Shown here: in pieces, positions 46,791 through 53,170 of the stretch
How positions within the stretch are numbered: the stretch's first letter is position 1
Layout: every line of letters begins with the position of its first letter
Origin: Seleniivibrio woodruffii
Lineage (GTDB): Bacteria; Chrysiogenota; Deferribacteres; Deferribacterales; Geovibrionaceae
Assembly (NCBI RefSeq): GCF_004339245.1
Contig: NZ_SMGG01000004.1
Span: 558,001 to 622,000, forward strand
Direction of reading: 5' to 3'
Length of the DNA stretch: 64,000 nt
Notes under the pieces: generated by a model
Told to the model about the DNA's origin: nothing
What the model saw: the letters and a program-made list of their open reading frames with translations, nothing else
Databases searched by the model: none
Position numbers and translations under genes: made by a program

Positions 46791-47489
46791 TTAACGGAAA
46801 TCGGCTATGTATTTTGAGAACTCCTCAAAATTTCCTTGTCTTTTAACCACTTCCGTACCGATCACAAAACCGCCCGTTGCCGCTATGGCTTTTGATGCAT
46901 CCTCCGGAGTGCGGATACCGAAACCAGTCACAACGGTCTTCCCGGTGAGTTTTTTCGCCAGCTCCGCCCTGTCGTTCTGCGTACCCTGCCTGTCAGAGCC
47001 TGTAACACCCATGATGCTGATGTAGTAGACGAAAGGCGCATCCGTATCCTTTATGGCTTCGATGTCCTCATCCCTTGAAACAGGGGTGACAAAAGGGATA
47101 ACGGGAATGGTCAGCCCCTTCTCCTTCATCCAGTAGTGCATTCTGGCGGGCAGATCGGGGATTATGACCCCGCTCAGGATATCGCCGAAATCTTCGGAGA
47201 ATTTCTTTTCGCCGTAGCCGTGGATAATGTTTGCATAGGTCATTACAGTGGCGCACACGGACGGGTATTTCTGCTTCATCTCCCGCACTTCCGCCATGAT
47301 AGCCTCAATATCCACTCCCTTTGTGACAGCCTCGTGTATTGCAGATGCAATAACGGGACCGTCCGCCACAGGTTCGCTGAAGGGAATGCCTATCTCTATG
47401 AACTCAAAGCCCGCTTCCGCCAGTGCGTTCAGGCATTTTCTAAAACTTTCCCTGTCGGGGTATCCGCCGACAATATAAAAACCTCTCAT
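46791..47489 (-). CDS. trpA: Tryptophan synthase alpha subunit
   Basis: TrpA cleaves indole-3-glycerol phosphate and passes indole to TrpB. It has 232 residues, compared with about 268 in E. coli, because the N-terminal helix is missing and the protein starts at strand 1 (FYIVGGYPD). The catalytic glutamate (EIGIPFSEP, replacing the usual FSDP) and aspartate (VADGP) are kept, as is the VTGSDRQGT loop and GFGI near the phosphate site. It overlaps trpB by four bases (ATGA) and ends the operon. Confidence 0.93.
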
Positions 47490-48652
47490 ACAAGCCCCCT
47501 TTCAAGGATGGATGCCATGTCCTTATCGCCCCTGCCCGAAAGATTCACGAGCACTTTTTTTCCTTTGAACTGCTCTTTGTTCTCAATAACATACGCAAGA
47601 GCATGGCTTGATTCCAGAGCGGGAATTATCCCCTCTCTGCGGGTGAGCAGTTTGAATGCGTTCAGAGCGTGGTCGTCACGCACATAGCCGTATGTGACAC
47701 GACCGGAATCGTTCAGCATGGCATGGACGGGGCCTATGCCCGGATAGTCAAGCCCTGCGGAAATGGAATGTACGTCCGCCACCTGATGCTCGGGGGTCTG
47801 AACGAGATAGGAATATGCACCGTGGAGTATACCCGGTTTGCCCATGCCTATTGTTCTGGCATGCTCACCGTCCTTGTCGGACACTCCGCCCGCCTCAACT
47901 CCATAGATGCTGACGGCAGGGTTGTCCAGAAATCCCTGAAAGATTCCGATGGCGTTGCTTCCGCCGCCAACACAAGCAACAACACAGTCGGGGTCGAACC
48001 CCAGTTCTCTGCACTGTGCGTTCGCCTCAATGCCTATCACCGACTGGAAGTATGCCACCATCTCAGGGAAAGGATAAGGGCCGACGATACTTCCGATTAT
48101 GTAATGTGTTGTTTCGACACTGGCCACCCACTCACGCAGAGCTGCGTTTGTTGCGTCTTTCAGAGTGCGCTGACCGTCCTGAACACGGACGACCTCCGCA
48201 CCCAGAAGCTGCATACGCTTTACATTCGGCTCCTGTCTGCGGGCGTCCACCTCACCCATGAAGACCGTGCATTCCATGCCGAACAGTGCCGCCGCAGTGG
48301 CGGTTGCCACCCCGTGCTGACCTGCGCCTGTTTCGGCTATCACACGTTTTTTGCCCATATATTTGGTCACCAGAGCCTGCCCCAGAGTGTTGTTGACCTT
48401 GTGCGCACCCGTGTGCATCAGGTCTTCCCTTTTCAGATACAGCTCACAGCCAAGCTCTTTCGACAGATTCTCAGCCTTATAAACGGGAGTGGGTCTTCCC
48501 GCATAGGATTTCAGCAGTGAATCCAGTTCTTTATTGAATTTTTCATCATTTTTCAGCTTATTGAACCAGAATTCCAGCTCATCCAGAGCAGGAATCAGGG
48601 TTTCAGGCACAAACTGCCCGCCGTATTCTCCATAAAAAGCCTTTTTAATCAT
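47486..48652 (-). CDS. trpB: Tryptophan synthase beta subunit
   Basis: This PLP enzyme joins indole and serine to make tryptophan. The 388 residues carry the family [14 protein letters not shown] start, the PLP lysine in [13 protein letters not shown], the phosphate-binding GGGSNAIG loop and the serine site ETGAGQHG. It is coupled to both neighbours by four-base overlaps. The 283-residue frame on the opposite strand is a shadow. Confidence 0.97.
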
Positions 48653-49176
48653 TTGAACGCCTCATTAGCCCGTTTTATAAATTCTGCTATCTTTTTTATA
48701 TCTTTAACGCCGTCAGTCTCGACCCCGCTGGAAACGTCCACACCGAATGGCCTGTATCTGCGGATGACATCGCCCACGTTCTCAGGCGTCAGCCCGCCCG
48801 CAAGGATCAGCCTGTCTGCAAATTCTGCTGTCCATTCCGGATATTCGCAGGTTTCGCCCTTTCCGCTGCTCTTGTCGAACAGAAAGTATCGGAAAGTGCC
48901 GGATGGTCTCTCATGTCCGCTCAGAATGTGGTTCTCCGCAAAATTTGCATCGTTTGCCTGAACGTAGTCAGTTTCATAGCCTTTGCACTCGGCCAGAGTA
49001 AACCCGACAGCACAGGTCTTTACTCTGCCACCGATAGCGTTTACTATAGTTTTAACGTCATCCGCTGAAAGATATCTTCTGCTTGCCCTGTGGGCAACGA
49101 AACCTATGATGTCCGCACCCAGCTCAATACATTTTTCAGCGGTTTCAAGGTCTTTCACCCCGCATATCTTTATCAC
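48649..49176 (-). CDS. trpF: Phosphoribosylanthranilate isomerase
   Basis: TrpF isomerises phosphoribosylanthranilate in tryptophan synthesis. At 175 residues it is a compact (beta/alpha)8 barrel, about 25 residues shorter than E. coli's domain. The N-terminal [11 protein letters not shown] (catalytic cysteine) and the late [11 protein letters not shown] phosphate-binding motif, with its catalytic aspartate, are present. It overlaps trpB and trpC by four bases each. Confidence 0.93.
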
Positions 49177-49928
49177 GCTTTAAGCCCCGATGCCATATCG
49201 GCAAACACAGCCTCCGGATTTTCAGACGACATAAGCCCCGAGCCAACCAGAAAAGCATCGGCTCCCGCCGCACGCATCTTTCTGATATCGTCCGCAGTCT
49301 TCATGCCGCTTTCGGCAACCCTGAAATGACCGCCTCCAAGACGGGAGATTATCCCCGCCGCTTTGTCCATATCTATCTCAAGTGTTTTCAGATTGCGGGC
49401 GTTCACTCCCACAATATCTGGGTTTACGGAGGCTACGATATCGTATTCCTCCTCCTCGTGAATCTCCGTCAGCACCGCCAGCCCTTTTGTTTTTGCGCAG
49501 TCGTACAGCCTCGCATACTGACCTTTCGACAGTGCCGTTGCCATCAGAAGAACGGCATCCGCACCGTAAACGTATGCTGTGTTTATCTGTTTTTCGTCTA
49601 TAATGAAATCTTTGCAGAGCACGGGAACGTTTATGTCCTCCGCCACCTCACGCATATATTCAAAACTTCCTTTAAAGAACTCCTTATCCGTCAGCACGCT
49701 GACTGCTCCTGCCCCCATCCTTTCATAGCGCAGGGCGGTCACCACGGGATCAGCCCCCACGTTTATGTCCCCCAGTGTCGGCGAGGCTTTTTTTACCTCG
49801 CAGATGAAAGGCTTTGCAGTCAGAGAGGCTTTAAAATCCAGAACCGCCTTTTTTCTCTGAAAAGCGGGAACTGTCATAACCGCAACTTCTTTCTTTTTGT
49901 TTTCCAGAATCTTTGCCAGTACAGACAT
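49173..49928 (-). CDS. trpC: Indole-3-glycerol phosphate synthase
   Basis: TrpC closes the indole ring. The 251 residues contain the catalytic lysine and substrate site in CEVKKASPTLGDIN, the second lysine in VLCKDFIID, and the later VGVNARNLKT and VAESGM blocks. It starts one base after the trpD stop. It is a single-function enzyme, separate from trpF, unlike the fused E. coli protein. Confidence 0.95.
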   Translation of the reverse strand: MSVLAKILENKKKEVAVMTVPAFQRKKAVLDFKASLTAKPFICEVKKASPTLGDINVGADPVVTALRYERMGAGAVSVLTDKEFFKGSFEYMREVAEDINVPVLCKDFIIDEKQINTAYVYGADAVLLMATALSKGQYARLYDCAKTKGLAVLTEIHEEEEYDIVASVNPDIVGVNARNLKTLEIDMDKAAGIISRLGGGHFRVAESGMKTADDIRKMRAAGADAFLVGSGLMSSENPEAVFADMASGLKA

Positions 49929-49929
49929 A

Positions 49930-50919
49930 TCAGTTTCCTTTCAGGCTGGAGAGTTTCTCAAGCACTGCGCCGCTGTTTATAACAGCCAGAGCCTGTCCGA
50001 ATCCGTCACGGATGTTGTCCGCTTTGCCGAAAACCGTGAGCGCAAGTCCTGCGTTCAGTGCTATCAGCTTCGAATATTCACCGCCCTTCGGTGATATCGC
50101 CAGATTAAAGTAATATTCCGCCTCTTTGTTGTCCTTTATAATCGGCATGTGGAAGGGTGTAAAATATTCGGCAGGGTTGATGAAATGCTTGATTATCCTG
50201 CCTGCGGAAACCTCATGAACCTCTGTGGGGGCGAAAGAGGATATCTCATCGTATCCATCCAGAGACGAATAGACCGCTACCCTGTCACGCCCCAGCATCA
50301 GAAGACTTTCGGCCAGAATTGCCAGTTTGTCGCGCATCGCCATCCCCACAATCTGCCCGCCAACGTTGGCAGGGTTTGCCAGCGGCCCCAGAAAGTTGAA
50401 TATGGTGGGCACACGCAGTTTTCTGCGCACAGCTCCCGCATATTTCAGAGCGGGATGGTACATCGGCGCAAAGAGGAAAGCGAAATTATGTTTCAGGAAA
50501 TAACCCTGCATATCGTTCTTTTCACTGCTGACGGGAACGCCCGACATTTCAAAAATATCCGCAGAACCGACTACGCCGCTCACCGCACGGTTCCCGTGTT
50601 TAACGACGGGATAGCCCATCGCCGAAAGCAGAACCGCAACGGCGGAGGATACGTTCATTGTGGATTTTCCGCTGCCGCCTGTTCCGCAGGTGTCATAGAC
50701 CTGCGTGTCGGTGTCGAATGATATCTTTTTCTCGTTCATAGCTCTGGCGGCTCCGGCTATCTCGTCCACGGTCTCGCCTCTCAGGCGCATGGAGATGAGT
50801 ATTCCGGCTATTTCCGCCTCTTCCATCTTGCCGTCCATCATGTCGATGAAGGCGCTGTACGTCTCTTCGAAGGTCAGGCTTCCGCCCATGCATGATTTTT
50901 TTACAAGTTCAACGCTCAT
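49930..50919 (-). CDS. trpD: Anthranilate phosphoribosyltransferase
   Basis: TrpD transfers a phosphoribosyl group to anthranilate. The 329 residues from ATG 50919 include the PRPP/diphosphate loop DTCGTGGSGKSTMNVS, the KHGNRAVSG motif and the FNFLGPLANPA segment. The start overlaps the trpG stop (TGATG). The longer frame starting at 51042 reads through trpG and is rejected. Confidence 0.95.
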   Translation of the reverse strand: MSVELVKKSCMGGSLTFEETYSAFIDMMDGKMEEAEIAGILISMRLRGETVDEIAGAARAMNEKKISFDTDTQVYDTCGTGGSGKSTMNVSSAVAVLLSAMGYPVVKHGNRAVSGVVGSADIFEMSGVPVSSEKNDMQGYFLKHNFAFLFAPMYHPALKYAGAVRRKLRVPTIFNFLGPLANPANVGGQIVGMAMRDKLAILAESLLMLGRDRVAVYSSLDGYDEISSFAPTEVHEVSAGRIIKHFINPAEYFTPFHMPIIKDNKEAEYYFNLAISPKGGEYSKLIALNAGLALTVFGKADNIRDGFGQALAVINSGAVLEKLSSLKGN

Positions 50920-51476
50920 CACTTCACCCCGCAGATGTTCATGAAATTTCTGACCATAACGTCGCCATGGGCACTCAGCACCGATTCGGGGTGAAACTGC
51001 ACCCCGTAAAGTTTGTTTGCCTCGTCCTCCATCGCCATACATTCGCCGTCCGACCCTGCAACAGAGGTTATAACGCTTTCGGGAGCGGACACCGCAAGGG
51101 AATGGTAGCGAACGGCTGTGAACCCGTCCTTGATTCCCGCAAACAGTTTCGACTCACGGGTCTTTTTCATAATGTCGGTCTTGCCGTGCATAACCGATTT
51201 CGCACTGCGCACCTCGTAGCCCAGATGATAACCCATTGCCTGCATCCCCAGACAAACGCCCATCATGGGAATTTTGCCTGTGTAAAGCTCTAGGTATTTA
51301 AGTGTGGTTCCTGAGTTTTTGGGGCTTGATGGGCCGGGGGAAAGGATTATCCCCTTATAGCCATCAGCCTCTCTGAACTCGGTGTTTTTTATAACGTCAA
51401 CCTCTGCGCCTGCCAGTCTGAACAGTGCGTACAGGTTGTATGTGAACGAATCGTAGTTATCAACTAACAGAAACAT
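50919..51476 (-). CDS. trpG: Anthranilate synthase glutamine amidotransferase subunit
   Basis: TrpG delivers ammonia from glutamine to TrpE. This 185-residue class-I amidotransferase starts at ATG 51476 (MFLLVDNYDSFTYNLY) with GGAGG upstream. The catalytic cysteine is in MGVCLGMQ and the His-Glu pair in FHPESV. It overlaps trpE by 17 bases. It may also serve folate synthesis (PabA role), as in some bacteria. Confidence 0.95.
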   Translation of the reverse strand: MFLLVDNYDSFTYNLYALFRLAGAEVDVIKNTEFREADGYKGIILSPGPSSPKNSGTTLKYLELYTGKIPMMGVCLGMQAMGYHLGYEVRSAKSVMHGKTDIMKKTRESKLFAGIKDGFTAVRYHSLAVSAPESVITSVAGSDGECMAMEDEANKLYGVQFHPESVLSAHGDVMVRNFMNICGVK

Positions 51477-52941
51477 CTCTTCCCTCCGCAGCCGCAATGC
51501 TTTTGTATGCGGCGAATAATGCGCCGAGCTTGTTCTCGACCTCTTTAAATTCCTTTTCGGGCACTGAATCGTAAACTATCCCCGCACCGGCTCTGAGCAC
51601 CGTTTCTTTAGGAGTTACGAATGCGCTTCTGATTGTTATGCAGGTGTCCATGTTGCCGCTGTAGCCGAAATAGCCCACGCATCCCGCATAAAAACCTCTC
51701 TCGGATTTTTCATACTGCTCGATAAGCTCCATCGCACGAACCTTAGGCGCACCGGAAACCGTTCCGGCGGGGAAACTGCGCATGAAGAGAGCCAGCGGTG
51801 TCGCCCTGTCCTCCAGAACGCCCTGAACTTCGCTGACGATATGGATAACGTGGCTGTAGACCTCAGGAATGAACTCCTGAACAACCTGCACGCTTTCAGG
51901 CTTACAGCAGGTGTAGAGGTCGTTGCGGGCAAGATCCAGCAGCATCAGGTGCTCTGCACATTCTTTGGTGTCCGCCAGCAGTGCCGCCTTCGCCGCCTCA
52001 ATGTCCGCTGTGATGGGATATGTGCCTGCGATAGGCTTAAGTGTAGCTGTTCTGTTGCGTATTTTAAGGTGTATCTCGGGTGATGCACCCAGAAGCACCT
52101 CTTTTCCGAATTTCAGGAAGAACATGTAGGGCGAAGGGTTGATGTTTCTCAGTGCTCTGTAGAGGCTCAGAGGGTTCAGACTGCCCTTGATGCGGTATGC
52201 GTTGCTTATGACTATCTGTATGCCCTCGCCTTCGGTTATCTCGCCCTTGACCTGCTCAACGGCTCTCATGAACTCTTCCTGCTCCATGTCCTTAACTATT
52301 TCGCAGTCAAGATCGGAATCGAAGTTGTCGAAGTTGAACCGGTTAAGCTCACCCGCCATTTTCTGTGTGCGTTTCAGAGCCTTTTCGTATGCCTCTTCAC
52401 CGTTTGCGGTTTTCATGCTCACAGCGGCATAGAGTTTTGAAAGATGGTTGTCGAATACAAAGAACTCGTCAACCTCCATGAACCCCAGAAGTTTGCTGTC
52501 CTTTGAGCATTTTACGGGCTGTTTCAGCACTCCCATGTAGTTTATGGACTCGTAAGCGAAAAATCCCGCAAAACCTCCGGCGAAATCGCCGAATTTACCG
52601 TCATTGTAACCCTTTTCAGCATAAAATTGCTGTGCCATGTAGTCCATGGGGTTCATTGAAAAGGTCTTCTTTTTGCCGCCGGATTTCTCTGTTACAGTGT
52701 CGTTCTGAAAGGTTATGACCCTTTTGGGGTTGTTTCCGAAAAATGAGAAACGGGAGAATGTTTTATCCAGATTCGCACTCTCCAGAAGAAACACATTCTC
52801 TTCGTTGGTGAAGTTGCGCAGGAGGGAGATAGGGGTGAAGGTGTCGCCCATTATCTCGCGGTAGACAGTCACTCTGTCGTATTCCTTCGCCAGTTCCAGA
52901 AACGATTCCCTGTCGGGGTAAACGGGCTGTCTGAGGTTCAT
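51460..52941 (-). CDS. trpE: Anthranilate synthase component I
   Basis: TrpE makes anthranilate from chorismate. The 493 residues have the tryptophan feedback site LLESA near the N-terminus. The chorismate-binding core has KPIAGTYP, DLARNDL, the AGTVSGAPKVRAMELI block and GAGIVYDS. The ATG at 52941 has AAGGAG upstream; the upstream extension overlaps the attenuator terminators and is rejected. It is the first structural gene of trpEGDCFBA and is controlled by the leader at 52966-53170. Confidence 0.96.
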   Translation of the reverse strand: MNLRQPVYPDRESFLELAKEYDRVTVYREIMGDTFTPISLLRNFTNEENVFLLESANLDKTFSRFSFFGNNPKRVITFQNDTVTEKSGGKKKTFSMNPMDYMAQQFYAEKGYNDGKFGDFAGGFAGFFAYESINYMGVLKQPVKCSKDSKLLGFMEVDEFFVFDNHLSKLYAAVSMKTANGEEAYEKALKRTQKMAGELNRFNFDNFDSDLDCEIVKDMEQEEFMRAVEQVKGEITEGEGIQIVISNAYRIKGSLNPLSLYRALRNINPSPYMFFLKFGKEVLLGASPEIHLKIRNRTATLKPIAGTYPITADIEAAKAALLADTKECAEHLMLLDLARNDLYTCCKPESVQVVQEFIPEVYSHVIHIVSEVQGVLEDRATPLALFMRSFPAGTVSGAPKVRAMELIEQYEKSERGFYAGCVGYFGYSGNMDTCITIRSAFVTPKETVLRAGAGIVYDSVPEKEFKEVENKLGALFAAYKSIAAAEGRDVSVS

Positions 52942-52965
52942 TTTATCTCCTTGTGGTTTAAAATT

Positions 52966-53000
52966 CAAAAAAAAAGGCCGTGTCTTGTTAGAACACGGCC
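52966..53000 (-). terminator. Second tandem terminator of the trp leader
   Basis: On the minus strand, GGCCGTGT and ACACGGCC (8 bp) form a hairpin followed by nine T residues. It lies between the attenuator and the trpE ribosome site, so transcription must pass two terminators to reach trpE. Confidence 0.85.
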
Positions 53001-53012
53001 CTGTAAGGCAAC

Positions 53013-53043
53013 AAAAAAGCCGTGCGGTTTTCACCGCACGGCT
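53013..53043 (-). promoter_or_regulatory. trp attenuator terminator
   Basis: A perfect 11-bp stem AGCCGTGCGGT / ACCGCACGGCT with a GAAA loop is followed by six T residues. The segment at 53026-53035 can pair alternatively with 53061-53070 (GGTTTTCGCC), which would prevent this terminator. That segment can itself pair with 53089-53093 next to the Trp codons. This is the mutually exclusive 1:2, 2:3, 3:4 arrangement of classical trp attenuation. Confidence 0.9.
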
Positions 53044-53072
53044 GTTATACACAAACTCATGGCGAAAACCTC

Positions 53073-53135
53073 TTATTCAGAAGATGAACGCCACCACCAA
53101 TTTTTAACGTTTGATTTAGCTGCAAAAATATTCAT
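53073..53135 (-). CDS. trpL: trp operon leader peptide
   Basis: This 20-codon frame is too short for automatic calling. It encodes a peptide with three consecutive tryptophan codons (53091-53099) at residues 13-15, followed by Arg, three Ser and Glu. Ribosome stalling at the Trp codons would free segment 2 (53061-53070) for antitermination. Translation to the stop at 53073 covers that segment and lets the terminator form. There is no ribosome site before the ATG. The promoter at 53142-53170 places the transcript start at or next to the A of the ATG, so it is probably leaderless, as has been reported for trpL in Sinorhizobium. Confidence 0.9.
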   Translation of the reverse strand: MNIFAAKSNVKNWWWRSSSE

Positions 53136-53141
53136 GAACGT

Positions 53142-53170
53142 ATAATGCATAAAATTTATCACCTAGTCAA
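53142..53170 (-). promoter_or_regulatory. trp operon promoter
   Basis: On the minus strand TTGACT (53165-53170) and CATTAT (53142-53147) are 17 bases apart. The -35 box overlaps the stop codon of the preceding radical SAM gene (codons Ile-Asp-stop). The leader ATG begins seven bases after the -10. No TrpR-like palindrome was recognised. Confidence 0.7.

Follow-up and report, generated by a model that had tools for sequence, protein, structure and literature searches.

In its textbook form, the transcription attenuator is an RNA switch that a ribosome reads and in which each sensor governs one terminator. In the window analysed here, a stretch of 64,000 nucleotides of the Seleniivibrio woodruffii genome, the leader of the trp operon combines one short peptide with two successive terminators (T1 and T2) in front of trpE. 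Because a T2 outside the control of the ribosome would oppose induction, its presence in every leader of this type needs explaining. The best explanation, which we regard as probable, is a leaderless trp attenuator in which two serial intrinsic terminators would be read by one ribosome.

The operon lies on the minus strand of the window in the order trpLEGDCFBA, with the attenuator in front (Table 1); trpG, trpD, trpC and trpF were assigned by NCBIfam, and trpB and trpA by eye from their translations. The leader region is located between trpE (52941-51460, minus strand) and a gene encoding an RlmN-like radical-SAM protein (53924-53163, minus strand), for which the nearest NCBIfam models were RNA methyltransferases of the RlmN/Cfr group, all scoring below the cut-off. 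This RlmN/Cfr-like product is short, at 253 aa, and has no counterpart of the N-terminal part of RlmN. Among named sequences, those closest to TrpE were from Seleniivibrio MAGs, with 87-90% identity, as expected of a Seleniivibrio-like genome within Deferribacterota, and TrpE homologues were present in 32 of the 51 Deferribacterota genomes searched.

Table 1. Coordinates of the trp leader elements and trp genes in the window, in the order of transcription.
Feature	Position	Strand	Evidence or remark
Predicted sigma-70 promoter of trpL	53142..53170	-	Consensus match; conserved -10-to-ATG distance
trpL leader peptide MNIFAAKSNVKNWWWRSSSE*, 20 codons, predicted leaderless	53073..53135	-	Stop codon 53075-53073
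Regulatory Trp codons TGGTGGTGG (53099-53091) and region 1 (53093-53089)	53089..53099	-	Sequence; 1:2 permutation
Region 2, partner of region 1 or region 3	53060..53070	-	Covariation, folding
Region 3 core GGTGAAAACC, the part that pairs in the 2:3 antiterminator	53026..53035	-	Covaries with region 2
Terminator T1 (3:4), stem 53043-53018, U run to 53013	53013..53043	-	Folding, conservation, covariation
Region 4 GCACGGCUUU, 3' arm of T1 and start of the U run	53016..53025	-	Proposed partner of region 5 once 2:3 forms
Region 5 AGGGCCGUGU, 5' arm of T2	52993..53002	-	Proposed to oppose T2 by forming 10 pairs with region 4
Terminator T2 (5:6), stem 53002-52974, U run to 52967	52967..53002	-	Present in 25/25 leaders; pairs covary
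Shine-Dalgarno AAGGAG of trpE	52947..52952	-	Anti-SD energy -8.5 kcal/mol
trpE, first structural gene controlled	51460..52941	-	Start 52941
trpG, trpD, trpC, trpF, trpB, trpA	46791..51497	-	Same strand, closely spaced

The 20-codon peptide with three consecutive Trp codons, reported in an earlier note on this DNA, was confirmed, and the design proved to be widespread among relatives. The comparison covered 25 loci upstream of trpE; apart from an unplaced Deferribacteres MAG and a MAG labelled Sumerlaeota, they belonged to six families of Deferribacterota. All 25 leader ORFs contained a run of three or four Trp codons, and in every case a strong hairpin with a U tail lay 28-38 nt past the leader stop, with a second such hairpin downstream; Trp codons and stems alike were conserved in 25/25. 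A covariance model built from the leaders recovered them at E ≤3.2e-7, and the ten places with weaker matches that were inspected were ordinary single terminators. The leader had no match at the gathering score in Rfam release 15, which includes the trp leader and T-box, and at E up to 10 it gave unrelated families only, below threshold. No convincing leader peptide for another amino acid was found in ~860 kb of this and related genomes. Control data, here and below, were taken from sampled genome stretches.

Translation of trpL appears to start at the very 5' end of its mRNA. On the minus strand, a -35 box TTGACT (53170-53165) is followed by a 17-nt spacer, a -10 box CATTAT (53147-53142), 6 nt and the leader ATG at 53135. 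The -35 box does overlap the stop codon of the upstream gene, as had been noted before, by one base at 53165, the last T of TTGACT being the first base of the TAG (53165-53163). When the best promoter was taken for each leader, the -10 box ended 5-9 nt before the ATG in 22/24 leaders, compared with 5-8 nt in 27 of 287 control ORFs; one further leader (L024) fits this distance with an alternative choice of promoter, read by eye. The mean anti-SD energy before the leader ATG was -0.9 kcal/mol vs -4.9 kcal/mol in control ORFs, and that of trpE itself was -7.9 to -9.3 kcal/mol in the genomes where it was computed. Before the leader ATG no usable Shine-Dalgarno was found, nor did the leaders share an upstream start preceded by a ribosome site; the few SD-like matches lie partly within the -10 box, so that the residual one in genus g2 would be absent from the transcript. 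Because the -10-to-ATG distance is conserved and a Shine-Dalgarno is missing, a leaderless trpL with a predicted mRNA 5' end at 53135 is well supported. The earlier claim that the mRNA begins at the leader ATG agrees with the position of the promoter and the lack of a Shine-Dalgarno, the start itself being predicted from the promoter. Genera differ in the upstream gene but keep the leader, which therefore belongs to trp and most likely has a promoter of its own.

The pairings 1:2 (53093-53089 with 53064-53060), 2:3 (53070-53061 with 53035-53026, 10 pairs) and 3:4 were all present and mutually exclusive, in agreement with the earlier note. For 3:4 that note had given 53013-53043; the terminator is there, its stem ending at 53018 and its U run at 53013. 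The leader folded better than 200/200 shuffles (z -4.6), and T1 and T2 alone gave a folding z of -6.7. When partners were exchanged between genera, duplex energies of own vs swapped partners were -18.9 vs -13.7 kcal/mol for 1:2, -21.6 vs -13.3 kcal/mol for 2:3 and -25.2 vs -17.5 kcal/mol for 3:4 (0/5000 permutations each), and the own partner was also better for 5:6 (0/5000 permutations); permutations and shuffles ignore kinship. The covariation of the three stems in related genomes, proposed earlier as a check, is thus found for 1:2, 2:3 and 3:4 alike. Region 2 varied from GGTTTTCGCC to GGTTGTTCACC, GGTTGTCCCC, GCTGTTCTGCCACC, GGTTGCCACC and GGACCTGTCCC, and region 3 followed every change. 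Region 2 starts two bases past the leader stop codon and would therefore be covered by a ribosome at the stop. Sequence distances and two-step folding, with ~13 nt of cover assumed ahead of the A site, indicated that region 2 is covered once the ribosome has reached the stop and stays accessible while the ribosome sits on the Trp codons. The reading as a complete trp attenuator is thereby borne out, its Trp codons, stems and terminators being conserved and covarying in the 25 leaders; because this pattern extends across the phylum, a ribosome-mediated trp transcription attenuator, ordinary in kind and with a predicted response to tryptophan, is strongly supported.

The earlier note regarded the second terminator as a further gate before trpE. 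T2 is present, and this description understates it: T1 and T2 have complementary arms, which suggests that the same ribosome may control both terminators. RNA polymerase would initiate at the A of the trpL ATG, and a ribosome would load onto the bare 5' end. With ample tryptophan, the ribosome would reach the stop codon and cover region 2, T1 (3:4) would form and transcription would end, while polymerases leaking past T1 would meet T2 (5:6) as a second lock. When Trp-tRNA is scarce, the ribosome would stall on TGGTGGTGG and 2:3 would form before region 4 is made, blocking T1; the freed region 4 would capture region 5 as it emerges (4:5), T2 would be prevented and trpEGDCFBA would be transcribed. 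If there is no translation, 1:2 would form and T1 would terminate. We lean towards such a relay, in which one ribosome would control the serial terminators through the chain 1:2, 2:3, 3:4, 4:5 and 5:6, antitermination at T1 freeing the segment that disarms T2. The elements, their conservation and their covariation are observed; from sequence we infer the start site, the response to tryptophan, both terminations and the kinetic order, including the 4:5 step.

The duplex energy of 4:5 was between -13.4 and -23.7 kcal/mol across the 25 leaders, whereas strong terminators drawn from six genomes and paired at random had a mean of -7.5 kcal/mol. Control terminators matching region 4 or 5 equally well amounted to ≤0.9% outside genus g3, and to 2-16% in that genus. 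Own pairs were ~4 kcal/mol better than swapped ones (0/5000 permutations). In alignment A2, 94.4% of the 4:5 cells were paired, with two-sided changes in 5/10 pairs (ten cells); none of 500 shuffles equalled these measures, and when the register was slid, pairing fell to 18-54%. In two-step folds that placed the ribosome on the Trp codons, 24/25 leaders formed 2:3 at the threshold adopted, after which region 5 paired with region 4, now free; placing the ribosome at the stop gave T1 and T2 in 25/25. However, control terminators put in place of T2 reached at least 8 pairs in 38% of cases. These pair counts are therefore unspecific, and support for 4:5 comes from duplex energies and covariation instead. 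In minimum-energy folds with T2 complete, T2 was favoured over 4:5 in 24/25 leaders, and 4:5 would therefore have to win kinetically, by forming first, which is the same kinetic situation as that of 2:3 against the more stable T1. A folding simulation with irreversible growth was set aside as unphysical, its outcome hanging on an ad hoc locking rule.

A classical attenuator might act at T1 only, with T2 as an independent back-up that cuts leakage in every state and that resembles T1 through duplication or gene conversion. T2 is usually a complete and stable terminator that is preferred to 4:5 once made, and in genus g3 it has drifted from T1 in sequence, both of which suit this arrangement; genus g3 is indeed the weakest case for a 4:5 relay, its T2 (-23 to -30 kcal/mol) being far stronger than its G-U rich 4:5 (-13 to -15 kcal/mol). 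Yet an uncontrolled T2 would block most of the transcripts induced by starvation, and it is kept in 25/25 leaders. If T1 and T2 were mere copies, moreover, 3:6, taken as the homology control, should equal 4:5, since copying would affect both alike; it was weaker, with two two-sided cells and 91/5000 permutations, which counts against copying. In genus g2 (L008, L009), the 5' arm of T2 tracks T1 (CTGTG), but the 3' arm of T2 lags behind as CACGG in two of the three species, and T2 there contains an internal wobble; in G006, the U tail of T1 carries a C, and a matching G precedes T2. The lag and the match both speak for selection on 4:5 rather than copying, and regulation at T1 only, with an independent T2, appears doubtful. 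A common genomic terminator motif was ruled out as the source of the likeness between T1 and T2, since the GCCGTG stem occurred in 4/424 terminator-like hairpins over ~464 kb of the same genome, two of them being T1 and T2 themselves.

That trpL is not leaderless is highly improbable. Translation would then start at the in-frame ATG at 53150 (MHYTFMNIF...), behind an AGGTGAT (53163-53157) that is complementary to the anti-Shine-Dalgarno in this genome, on an mRNA initiated further upstream or produced by read-through from the preceding gene. However, the upstream ATG is limited to 4/5 leaders of genus g1 and the AGGTGAT to this genome, both coincide in part with the promoter spacer and the -10 box, and upstream genes that differ between genera make read-through no shared source of transcripts; the ATG with its AGGTGAT was rejected as the true start, not being conserved. 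A leader RNA terminated at T1 or T2, or the peptide, might also act in trans like rnTrpL or peTrpL, which would be compatible with a leaderless attenuator with two serial terminators. The terminated product would be a leaderless mRNA of ~120 nt ending in a stable 3' hairpin, a product of the rnTrpL type (PMC7298713). Nevertheless, the peptide varies freely among genera apart from its Trp codons, and with a single trp operon there is no obvious counterpart of the separate, trans-controlled trpDC operon of S. meliloti, so that such a role seems improbable.

Among known systems, the trp attenuator of E. coli follows the same logic of regions 1-4, and there too region 2 is masked by a ribosome that has reached the stop codon. 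In E. coli, trpL is preceded by a 5' UTR with a ribosome binding site and followed by a single attenuator terminator, whereas the present leader has no predicted 5' UTR and two extra regions, 5 and 6. More than one terminator is present in the ermK leader. Both ermK of Bacillus and bmrBCD of B. subtilis are ribosome-mediated transcription attenuators in which, as proposed here, stalling of a ribosome on a leader ORF tips the balance from an intrinsic terminator to an antiterminator, but they sense antibiotics and do not use Trp codons (PMC5418344, PMC4191407). The earlier note was correct that a leaderless trpL is known from Sinorhizobium (PMC7298713), and another has been described in Streptomyces (PMC8079986). 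The trpLE(G) attenuator of Sinorhizobium meliloti, with its rnTrpL and peTrpL, shares with the present one consecutive Trp codons, competition of 2:3 with 3:4, and a start at the trpL ATG and a terminated leader RNA (both predicted here); it differs in its 14-codon peptide, its separate trpE(G) operon and the one attenuator terminator described (PMC7298713), against 20 codons, an operon of trpEGDCFBA and two terminators in series whose adjacent arms are complementary. In Streptomyces lividans, the leaderless trpL1 upstream of trpE likewise encodes a Trp-Trp-Trp peptide of similar length, MFAHSTRNWWWTAHPAAH, and two hairpins with a U-rich stretch precede trpE; there, however, a single U-rich stretch is described for the two hairpins, trpE is monocistronic, the phylum is another and a coupling of two terminators is not described (PMC8079986). 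No attenuator from Deferribacterota and no coupled tandem-terminator attenuator was found in the open-access literature and, as far as that literature goes, no relay attenuator with such a coupled double terminator has been described.

If the relay is true, one ribosome position would set two serial terminators, and leakage would be cut multiplicatively without loss of induction, a natural design for low-leak switches. It would also have been kept, together with the leaderless trpL, through much of Deferribacterota. The predicted leaderless start by itself would place leaderless trpL in a further phylum.

Several loci depart from the common arrangement or lie outside its expected range. In L003, L004, L010 and L011, ~120-250 extra bases with inverted repeats lie between T2 and trpE, and the attenuator is undisturbed. 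The MAG labelled Sumerlaeota (L036, PWGE01000305.1) also has the trp leader with tandem terminators, in this case with four Trp codons; either its trp operon was acquired horizontally or the contig was misbinned. In family f6 (L030, G031), a T-box-like sequence with the motif GGTGGCACCGCGG precedes trpE, so that trp appears to be controlled differently in this lineage of the order. A candidate Trp leader in family f7 (L029, G039), MKKFSLYLKPLFVSYFFSQSWRVLWWRFNA, lies upstream of trpE with a promoter near its ATG and without tandem terminators, and is perhaps another leaderless form. The sole leader found in Chrysiogenetes (L027, G001) encodes the peptide MKYRVAVTLFSCSWRWWR upstream of trpE, with AGGAG before its ATG, a single terminator and an ATG well beyond the predicted transcription start; as a leadered outgroup, it lets leadered and leaderless versions of the same switch be compared.
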